Of a stretch of 64,000 nt of DNA, positions 34,729 through 38,373 are shown one piece after another. Numbering within the stretch: the stretch's first letter is position 1; each line of letters begins with the position of its first letter. The stretch spans positions 1 through 64,000 of the forward strand of contig CAMDEA010000012.1 in the NCBI GenBank assembly GCA_945893045.1, in the 5' to 3' direction. This stretch comes from Planctomyces sp. SH-PL62 (lineage in GTDB: Bacteria > Planctomycetota > Planctomycetia > Planctomycetales > Planctomycetaceae). The notes under the pieces are model-generated. The model was not told where the DNA came from. It made no database searches and was given only the letters and a program-made list of their open reading frames with translations. The position numbers and the translations under genes are program-made.

Positions 34729-36231
34729 TCAGAATGACTCCGGCAACGCCGAGTGCCGATACATATTCCGCAACGCCGAATCGCACAGGCCGACCACATT
34801 AAACGGCCGGATCGCCGCCGCCAACTCGCTCTCGAATTCCGCAACGTCGGCCACTTCACGCAGCCGGTCACACATCCGCCGCACAACCGGCAGCCAAGCT
34901 GGATCATTCGCCAGCAAAAAGGCCGGTTGAAATTCTCCGATGCTCGCGACACGAGCACGCTCATAACTTGTCGCCGCCGCGAAGTAGAGCATCGTGGCGG
35001 CGGCGAAGCGACGAAAGTCTCCCAACCCCGCGAAGCAGCCGCTGACTAGCAGGTCGATCATTTCGACCTCGCCCAAGACGCAGCGTTCGTATTCACGTAG
35101 TCGTAATTCCAAATCGTCACGGCCGAGCGACCGAATCAGAATGCGAGCCAGCCGCTCGATCCCGCAGAGCGTGTGCGCGATCCCGGAACTGTGCAGCGCG
35201 TCGATGAAGCCCGCCGTGTTCGGCAACATCGCCCACCAGGCACCGGCCGCGCGGGCCACCTTGCGTTGCAACCGCCCAGTGCTGCGCAGACCACCAACCG
35301 GTCGGACGATTTTCGCGTTCGCGAATTGCTCGCCGACGGACGGGTATCGGCGCAACCAGGAATCCCATTCGTCGCTCGCCGAAAGATTCGGCCGCTCGCC
35401 ACGATTCAAGTCCTGCACGAAACCGGCGCTGAGGGTCTCGTCATTGAACCGCAGTTGCCACATCCAACCGGCATCGAAAGCGTGATGCAGCGCGGCGTGA
35501 TCGCAGTCGAACGGATGCTCGGCCGTGTCGAGGCCGCGTGATTCCATGCAGCGCTTCCAGCGAGTCACGTCCGCGAAGTGAGCGAACACCGCTCGTGAAT
35601 TCGTCCGCAGTTCAAGCGTCCGATTTTCGATTCCCAATTGCTTCGCGAGAAATCCCCCTTCGCCACTCGCATCGACAACGAAGCGAGTCCGCACCTCGTG
35701 GGGCAGGTTTCCAACCTGCCCGTGCTTCAAGGGCAGGTTGAAAACCTGCCCCACGCCGGGCAATTCAATCTCCCCGATGTCGCACTGCTCAAAACAGATC
35801 GCCCCTGCCGCGCGAGCCTCTTCAAACAAAAACCCATCGACATCCTGCCGCAACCAGTGCGTATCCGAATGCTGATCGCTGCTGCTGGCCGCGACGAGCA
35901 ACTCCGTCGAATGCTCCGCATCCGCCAGGAACGGCTGACCGGCCTCGTGATGAAAGTACGAAAACCCACGCTTGATCCCAGAGACCAGTTGCGGATGCGT
36001 CGCCTGCCAGGTGCCATACTTCGCCAACGGAGCGACTCGCGGCAGGTCATACTCGCGGCACAAGTCCTTCAACACGAGATTCGCAATCGGAGTGGATGAC
36101 TCACCAATCGCAAACCGCGGATGCCGGCCTTTGTCGATCAAGGCAACGCTCAACCCCGCGCGCCGCAGCACCAGCGCCAGCAAGCTGCCGCCGAAACCTC
36201 CACCCACAATCGCCACTTCCACTTCCAGCAT
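34729..36231 (-). CDS. flavin-dependent halogenase-like FAD oxidoreductase
   Basis: 500 residues. The start ATG at 36231 is preceded by AAGGGGACAC and the protein begins MLEVEVAIVGGGFGGSLLAL, the FAD site GxGxxG. Then comes IGESSTPIANLVLKDL, FVVDASGEGGFLAK, and near 250 the segment AGWMWQLRFND, which resembles the WxWxIP motif of FAD halogenases and related monooxygenases. The coding frame contains a 57-bp palindromic element (35698-35754) that adds 19 residues including GQVFNLPLKHGQVGNL. Substrate and halogenation are unproven, because the usual tryptophan-halogenase Lys site is not certain. The radical SAM gene lies upstream on the same strand. Confidence 0.85.
   Translation of the reverse strand: MLEVEVAIVGGGFGGSLLALVLRRAGLSVALIDKGRHPRFAIGESSTPIANLVLKDLCREYDLPRVAPLAKYGTWQATHPQLVSGIKRGFSYFHHEAGQPFLADAEHSTELLVAASSSDQHSDTHWLRQDVDGFLFEEARAAGAICFEQCDIGEIELPGVGQVFNLPLKHGQVGNLPHEVRTRFVVDASGEGGFLAKQLGIENRTLELRTNSRAVFAHFADVTRWKRCMESRGLDTAEHPFDCDHAALHHAFDAGWMWQLRFNDETLSAGFVQDLNRGERPNLSASDEWDSWLRRYPSVGEQFANAKIVRPVGGLRSTGRLQRKVARAAGAWWAMLPNTAGFIDALHSSGIAHTLCGIERLARILIRSLGRDDLELRLREYERCVLGEVEMIDLLVSGCFAGLGDFRRFAAATMLYFAAATSYERARVASIGEFQPAFLLANDPAWLPVVRRMCDRLREVADVAEFESELAAAIRPFNVVGLCDSALRNMYRHSALPESF
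35698..35754. repeat. in-frame palindromic element (family G), 57 bp, in the flavoprotein gene
   Basis: GTGGGGCAGG at the left and CCTGCCCCAC at the right end the element, and inside there are two hairpin units, GGCAGGTTTCCAACCTGCC and GGCAGGTTGAAAACCTGCC. The length of 57 is 19 codons, so the host frame is preserved. Confidence 0.95.
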
Positions 36232-36347: not shown

Positions 36348-37535
36348 TCATGACCGATTGATCATCACCGCCGAGTGAGGCGACGGCTGGCATCCCGGAC
36401 AGACGACCGGCGACCGGATCGTCTGCGACAAATTCATTTGCCGCAACCGCTCGACCCGCTCGGCCGCACACGTCGTGCAGGCGGCGAAGCGAGCGGCATC
36501 CCACGTGTCGGCGAAGACTCGGCCGCGTTGCATTTCGATTCCGGTCGCTAAGACGTCCTCCAGTGAAGCCAGATTCGGTGGAGAGAAACGTCCCTCCGCT
36601 TGCAGTCGCTCCATCGTTCCGTTGCCCGCACGTGTCGGAATCACTGAGACGCATGTCACTCCACAATCGAACGCGAACGTGATCGACCGCAGCGCCCAAT
36701 CGACCCCTTCCGCTTCGGACAAGAACGGCGGCCGCAGCAGCACGAACGCGCGGACGGCGATGTCATGCTCGACCAGAAACCGCGCCGCCCGCTCAAAGTC
36801 ACCGAGCGTCATGCGCTTGTTCATCCGCGCGAGCACGTCCGGGTGTACCGTCTCCAATCCCATCGCGACTTCCAGGTGGACGTCACGGGGTCGGGAGTCT
36901 TTTTCCGAGCGGCCTTCCTCATCACATTGTCGCTCCAACGACGTCGGGCCGCTCGAAAAAAGACTCCCGACCCCTTCGCGTGGCAGGTTAAGAAGTTCGC
37001 GAAACCGCAAACAGCGATCATCAATCAGCAGCGGATGGTTCTCGACGATGACTCGCTCGAACTGCCGCACACGATCGGCAATCGCCGGCCAGTCGTCGGG
37101 CGGAATCGCGGAGGCATCGAAGAAGTTGCCACTGTTGTAGAGCTTCACGACGCTGGGAGCAGGACGGGGTCGGGAGTCTTTTTCCGAGCGGCCCGCTGCT
37201 GAATGTTGCTGATCCAACAACGACGGGCCGCTCGGAAAAAGACTCCAAACCCCTTCGCGTGGGCAAATCTCATCCAGCGCGATGTCGATCTGCTTCGGCA
37301 CCGCACCGCGCGGCGTCGGCTCATCCAGCGTGTGCCGCCAGAGATCGCAGTACACGCAGCGGAACGAACACTCGCGATTCGCCAAGAAAATCGTGGCCAC
37401 GTCAACCACGCGCCCGTCGGCTTGCCGCTCCGGTTCGACGAACGAGGCAATCGGTCGCCACGGATCGACCAGCGCTTTCGGACCACGCGCGGCGAGGACT
37501 TCACGATCGGTGAGTTTGGGGAAAAATGGTATCAC
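36348..37535 (-). CDS. radical SAM protein related to the archaeosine synthase partner family
   Basis: About 395 residues if the GTG at 37535 starts the protein; no ATG fits before the conserved [19 protein letters not shown]. The iron-sulfur site is [12 protein letters not shown] (CxxxCxxC). [17 protein letters not shown] and, later, [20 protein letters not shown] and [20 protein letters not shown] resemble COG1244/RaSEA proteins, although RaSEA has a longer Cys spacing. A C-terminal CTTC and CPGC may bind another metal. Two in-frame palindromic elements of 99 bp each lengthen the protein by 66 residues. The gene diverges from queC (37675), which supports a link with deazaguanine chemistry as inference only. 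Confidence 0.8.
36885..36983. repeat. in-frame palindromic element (family F), copy 1, 99 bp
   Basis: GGGGTCGGGAGTCTTTTTCC and GAGCGGCC at the left pair with GGCCGCTCGAAAAAAGACTC and CCGACCCC at the right. It encodes [18 protein letters not shown] and following residues in the radical SAM protein. Copies 1 and 2 share ends from ACGGGG to CGCGTGG, 99 bases, exactly 33 codons. Confidence 0.96.
37164..37262. repeat. in-frame palindromic element (family F), copy 2, 99 bp
   Basis: Second copy, same length and same terminal bases as copy 1, encoding [18 protein letters not shown] and following residues. It lies about 180 bases from copy 1 within the same gene. Confidence 0.96.
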
Positions 37536-37568: not shown

Positions 37569-37674
37569 GAGAAGTCGCGCGCAATGCGTTCCTTTTCCCC
37601 AGGCACGTTGCCCACAAGAATACCGCTGCCTCAGAAACTCGAAAGCAACTGTGTTTGAAAACAACAGTGAGACC

Positions 37675-38373
37675 ATGAGCAACATTCCGCCAAAAGCAGT
37701 CGTCCTCCTCAGCGGCGGACTCGATTCCGCGACCGTGCTGGCAATCGCACGGCAGCAAGGCTTTGAAACCTTCGCCCTCTCCATCGACTACGGCCAGCGG
37801 CATCGGTTCGAGTTGGAAGCCGCGCGGCGCGTCTGCCAGTCACTCGGAGCCAAACAGCATCGGGTGTTTCAAATTGACTTGCGGCAGTTCGGCGGTTCGG
37901 CACTGACGGCCGACATCGCCGTTCCGAAGGATCGCAGCGACGCACAGCTTCACTCCGGCATCCCGATTACTTACGTCCCGGCTCGCAACACGATCTTCTT
38001 GTCGCTGGCGCTCGGCTGGGCTGAAGTGCTCGGCGCGTTTGACCTGTTCATCGGCGTCAACGCGGTCGATTACAGCGGCTACCCCGATTGCCGGCCGGAG
38101 TTCATCCAAGCGTTTGCTGAGGTCGCGCGGCTCGGCACCAAAGCGGGAGCCGAACGGACCGGGCGATTCGTGATTCATTCACCGCTGATCTCACTGTCAA
38201 AAGCCGAGATCATTCGTCGTGGCGTCGCACTCGGTGTCGATTACGGTTTGACGACCAGTTGCTACGACCCCGACTCGGCGGGCCGGCCCTGTGGCCATTG
38301 CGATTCCTGCCAACTGCGTCGAAAAGGCTTCGCCGAAGCGGGGCGCGTCGATCCGCTGCCGTACCGGGATTGA
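37675..38373 (+). CDS. queC: 7-cyano-7-deazaguanine synthase
   Basis: 232 residues. The ATP pyrophosphatase loop is [17 protein letters not shown] and the zinc site is [18 protein letters not shown] (four Cys), as in Que[21 protein letters not shown] and [14 protein letters not shown] are also characteristic. The enzyme converts 7-carboxy-7-deazaguanine to preQ0 with ATP and ammonia, for queuosine or other deazaguanine products. The start ATG at 37675 gives the normal length; longer frame sequence upstream overlaps the divergent radical SAM gene. The glycosyltransferase gene follows after 8 bases. Confidence 0.97.

Follow-up and report, generated by a model that had tools for sequence, protein, structure and literature searches.

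In-frame palindromic elements in a planctomycete radical SAM gene and in other genes of the same genus

A radical SAM gene of Planctomyces sp. SH-PL62 contains two similar palindromic segments, which raises the question of whether they are a regular part of the protein family or DNA that has entered the reading frame, and what could have carried it there. The gene lies at 36348–37535 on the minus strand of the window (the whole stretch analysed, 64,000 nucleotides) and was delimited by its open reading frame (ORF), an orthologue alignment, a profile match and an AlphaFold model. It is a single ORF whose probable start codon is GTG; the protein has 395 aa and includes both segments in frame. 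The nearest named model for the protein is the RaSEA-like TIGR01210, matched below its cut-off; the protein is remotely related to the archaeosine enzyme RaSEA, and the gene adjoins a QueC-like gene (37676–38373).

We compared the protein with its orthologues, which were present in all 12 genomes of the genus. The results showed that both segments occur only in the window's genome (G000) and in G004, at identical positions, while in the other 10 genomes they are missing and the family sequence is continuous, as seen in the alignment with 11 congeners. Relative to the empty relative G002, the net gain was exactly 99 bp for each segment. Both segments are in-frame insertions, and the preliminary description was right that removing them restores continuous sequence. 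Its exact length of 33 codons holds for these two copies, but other copies differ. At the first site, G002 has a stretch (GCGAAGGGGGCG) that could be a remnant or a product of chance, and we did not use it. In the AlphaFold model (mean pLDDT 80), the inserts correspond to residues of about 107–135 and 201–228, numbered on the 408-aa frame beginning at 37574; both ranges fall below pLDDT 50, and each insert follows a helix and precedes a strand. The exposed position claimed earlier for both inserts finds its support in this model, which predicts them to be disordered and in helix-to-strand loops. From the fold class, the insert loops would face away from the strand-to-helix side that carries the CxxxCxxC cluster motif.

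The two copies, at 36885–36983 and 37164–37262, are 99 nt each and share 83% identity, with arms of 33–35 nt that are 89–91% complementary. Folded as single-stranded DNA, copy 1 reached -34.3 kcal/mol (z = -7.0) and copy 2 -37.5 kcal/mol (z = -8.0), and none of 200 shuffled sequences folded as well, which bears out the inverted-repeat core described before. Across 85 sites the conserved unit consists of AC, a palindromic core of 84–105 nt (mostly 85–88 or 103 nt), TT and a weaker CGCG. The 99-bp unit first proposed fits both window copies, but its final TGG is not conserved across these sites. With these boundaries, copy 1 extends over 36885–36980 on the plus strand in the canonical orientation AC-core-TTCGCG, on the evidence of inverted repeat, fold and family logo; its core is 36887–36974, with arms at 36887–36914 and 36947–36974 and a loop at 36915–36946. 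Copy 2, identified by inverted repeat and fold, extends over 37164–37259 in the same orientation (plus strand; core 37166–37253, arms 37166–37193 and 37226–37253, loop 37194–37225). The typical hairpin has arms of about 28 bp and a loop of ~31 nt. Its outer arm is near-invariant, while the inner stem showed 45 compensatory changes affecting both sides and a covariation of 0.193, compared with 0.055 in shuffles. In five of the six frames the consensus arms can be read without a stop, which makes in-frame survival easier. A search of Rfam with the element gave matches that were all below threshold and mostly to microRNA models, a reflection of the hairpin shape.

We then determined the copy number by genome searches and from the 85 retrieved sites. 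Allowing for a single mismatch, the arm motif occurred 191 times in the 7.83-Mb genome and its reversed control not once, corresponding to about 95 elements; at least 84 distinct sites were recovered with a covariance model based on 23 copies. Copies lie both within and outside ORFs, so the genome search proposed in the preliminary description did yield further copies of both kinds. Of the 63 sites other than the 22 coding ones, codon usage, which is noisy, placed most in or beside intergenic DNA; this sorting of all 85 sites served for picking candidates, and the in-frame claim comes from orthologues. Among 40 sampled genomes, the element was abundant in G000, G002, G004 and G008, sparse elsewhere in the genus and missing from the family's other sampled genera; one genome of the same class gave 7 weaker matches. 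Four G000 contigs (C11, C17, C26 and C74) start inside element copies, within the first ~80 bases, so that assembly contigs end where the element lies. The nearest records are planctomycete MAGs with mostly lake-like names, from which we infer a lake habitat for the host.

In-frame copies were found at no fewer than 22 sites in 18 genes, that is, at 20 sites in 17 genes beyond the radical SAM gene. The hosts include GlnE (two copies), Mfd, a NuoM-like subunit, two heavy-metal P-type ATPases, a BioF-like enzyme and an O-antigen-ligase-like protein. A 2184-residue ORF with three in-frame copies (L088 926–5501, on G000 contig C108) appears polyketide-synthase-like by its carrier-protein motifs. 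In 75 comparisons with orthologous DNA from five congeners, the length difference was always a multiple of three (75/75) and the sequence read open in 74. The same family was present in 28 comparisons, three sites were cleanly empty and some held in-frame remnants, as did L114 in both G002 and G008; at L150 the sole orthologue found had no clear empty state. L127 was dropped as an in-frame site, its upstream flank containing a stop. No target site duplication was apparent at the compared sites, where the divergence of the empty sites prevents exact placing of the insertion ends. The core length was of the form 3n + 1 at 15 of the 22 coding sites compared with 21 of the 63 others (P = 0.006). 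These multiple-of-three insertions, together with a stop-free loop, show that a gene gains about 30 codons with each copy.

The loop is under no visible amino-acid constraint. In shared copies, its substitutions at codon positions 1, 2 and 3 were 0.29, 0.29 and 0.34, while those of the host flanks were 0.08, 0.05 and 0.23. Stops were absent from the coding frame of the loops (0/240) but occurred in 23 of 494 in the other two frames (P = 1.4e-4), a statistic drawn from sites picked as open in G000 and from orthologues that share ancestry. This avoidance of stops in an unconstrained loop indicates that the inserts are very probably translated.

The arms behave differently from the loops. Where loops were clearly inherited in place, the arms differed by 5.8%, the loops by 18% and host third positions by 25%. 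Deviation of the outer arm from the consensus over 38 positions was 0.23 in G004, 0.75 in G002 and 3.83 in G008, the last from 6 copies and near the neutral expectation of about 4.8, with host divergence equal across the species. Arms that are uniform in some species and decayed in G008 suggest homogenisation by an active family. The presence of consensus arms in copies that have not moved since the species split is not explained by plain mobility.

Occupants of a site also changed between species. The loop was inverted, with the flanks left as they were, at L088-926 (G000 vs G004) and at L124 (G004 vs G000 and G008), and the inverted-loop alignment scores were matched in none of 924 comparisons of unrelated loops. 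Complete replacement of the element wherever loops differ was considered and rejected, as alignment in both orientations showed most loops to be inherited in place, with replacement a possibility for about two of them (in G002, at L119 and L102). Among 47 orthologous sites without the element family, 17 held a palindrome of another family, compared with 7 of 228 control segments (3%; P = 8e-10), the 17/47 sites being partly dependent through shared species history. A palindrome of a different family is present beside the radical SAM gene, in frame at 35697–35755 (no strand assigned) of an FAD-type oxidoreductase-like gene (frame 34732–36231, minus strand). It is a double palindrome beginning GTGGGGCAGGTTTTCAACCTGCCC, in frame in 9 of the 12 species, and four of its stem positions switch together in G002, G004 and G006 (CAGG/CCTG vs CACG/CGTG), so that the Q-to-H and L-to-V changes occur together. 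The window contains 19 strong palindromes of many families, and shuffled sequence none; genome-wide, palindromes may number on the order of two thousand. Beyond what was first described, the analysis adds a probable mover of the RAYT type (REP-associated tyrosine transposase), turnover at the sites and several unrelated palindrome families that do likewise.

The candidate mover is a RAYT-like gene (HUH/Y1) of 221 aa on contig C115 of the sister genome G004, which matches Y1_Tnp above its cut-off (40.7 bits) and NF047646 below it (70 bits; cut-off 80). One element lies just upstream and one just downstream, in the same orientation and each within about 35 bp. By this arrangement, seen at the single locus, the RAYT is the likely mover of the element. 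Five other Y1 loci of the genus have GGGGTC[AG]GG palindromes of other families nearby. No element-flanked RAYT or Y1 gene was found in the window's own assembly, G002 or G008; the window's assembly is 89% complete and some of its contigs start in elements, so a missing RAYT could have been lost between copies. On G000 contig C155 (L039, 430–1690), GGGGTCAGGTCTTCAAATTTC palindromes flank the gene of a Y1 transposase of 317 aa whose C-terminal domain is DnaA-like, an arrangement that fits the TIRYT type.

Taken as a whole, these data are probably best read as a small non-autonomous mobile palindrome that is found in frame inside genes, is likely moved by a RAYT, adds a tolerated peptide and has its occupants modified or exchanged. 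The RAYT of G004 or a close relative would recognise the hairpin as single-stranded DNA, excise or copy it, and insert it close to a short favoured sequence that has CGCG on one side. Selection would remove out-of-frame insertions, and the extra peptide would be translated, disordered and functionally neutral. The arms would remain uniform while the loop drifts freely except for staying open, and in permissive protein loops the occupant would change over time by loop inversion, in-frame deletion of a part or a palindrome of another family. A further idea, to which we give rather less than even chances, is that such protein loops are long-lived docking sites where palindromes are rewritten in place and in frame, with arms refreshed, loops inverted and families exchanged. 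If so, a DNA-level process would go on editing amino-acid sequences in a coordinated way genome-wide, producing coupled changes such as the paired Q/H and L/V switch at 35697–35755.

Other explanations account for parts of these observations. That the palindrome is kept for a host function of its DNA or RNA structure (a binding site, mRNA stability or translation pausing) and is not mobile would agree with the inner-stem covariation and with the low divergence of arms in non-moving copies (5.8%, against 25% at host third positions). We nevertheless consider this unlikely, since in G008 the decay of the arms is close to neutral, congeners show in-frame remnants and clean losses, copies are scattered over unrelated genes, and a RAYT is associated with the element. 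Equally unlikely is that the element is a classical MITE driven by a DDE transposase and that its RAYT neighbourhood in G004 is a coincidence: the long terminal inverted repeats are MITE-like and only one RAYT locus carries the element, but that RAYT has an element on each side at close range, and the other Y1 loci of the genus share the layout with palindromes of their own.

Less probable still is that the inserts are lost after transcription or bypassed during translation, in an intron-like or hop-like manner that leaves the protein unchanged. The strong hairpin would fit, as would the location in conserved proteins, Mfd and GlnE among them, whereas neither the avoidance of in-frame stops nor the multiple-of-three lengths would be needed under removal, and nothing in Rfam scored above threshold. 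The view that these segments are simply conserved sequence belonging to the radical SAM family, which only their presence in two species favours, has practically no chance of being correct: it is refuted by the empty congeners, 10 of 12 with continuous family sequence, and by about 95 dispersed copies of the sequence in unrelated genes and outside genes.

The mobile in-frame palindrome that we favour resembles several known systems. Rickettsia palindromic elements (RPEs; Ogata et al. 2000) are in-frame palindromes reported from 19 Rickettsia reading frames, one of them in a translated, active enzyme according to a review (PMC2229807). RPEs and the protein-coding palindromes of Wolbachia share with our element a length of about 100 bp, many copies, locations inside and outside genes, and apparent tolerance; our element is also in frame in conserved proteins and absent from relatives (22 sites, 18 genes). 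Compared with the 105–146 bp of Rickettsia-type elements, it is slightly shorter, with its core of 84–105 nt and short ends. Unlike the RPE, it has a free-living host in another phylum, a candidate transposase, conserved arms with a free loop, and sites in common with unrelated families. Like REP/REPIN sequences with their RAYT (PMC3733652; PMC3116915), it is a high-copy palindrome of which copies flank a RAYT gene, in G004 at contig C115 alone. However, a REP unit is 20–40 bp, and near the element the REP tags GTAG and CGTC occurred at only 1 and 6 of 85 sites, giving no sign of an unpaired tag; the element also differs in its longer hairpin and its many in-frame copies within the proteins of one genus. 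Intragenic REPs, RAYT-flanking REPs and TIRYT-flanking TIRs are on record, and the recB genes of two Xanthomonas species carry different REPs at about the same site (PMC3733652). As with TIRYT TIRs (PMC3733652), palindromes starting with GGGGTC lie beside Y1 genes at several loci of the genus, one with a perfect GGGGTCAG start. The TIR motif GGGGWSAS differs from the element's GGGGTCGG by one mismatch, and the transposase here is short and RAYT-like (221 aa) rather than of the 317-aa TIRYT type with a DnaA-like tail. The element works in the manner of an RPE, and its movement is probably that of a REP or TIR; the likeness to RPEs drawn in the preliminary description is apt as a mode of working.

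In-frame palindromes are already known from Rickettsia RPEs and intragenic REPs. The most familiar cases come from Rickettsia and Wolbachia, which have reduced genomes, and the present element extends the phenomenon to free-living bacteria. These results also carry a warning, in that covariation within such proteins can stem from DNA palindromes and not from protein contacts. The 12 sampled species provide filled, empty, remnant and exchanged states of the same site, together with a candidate transposase. It can now be tested how such DNA enters proteins, why it stays in frame, and whether new protein sequence arises from it.
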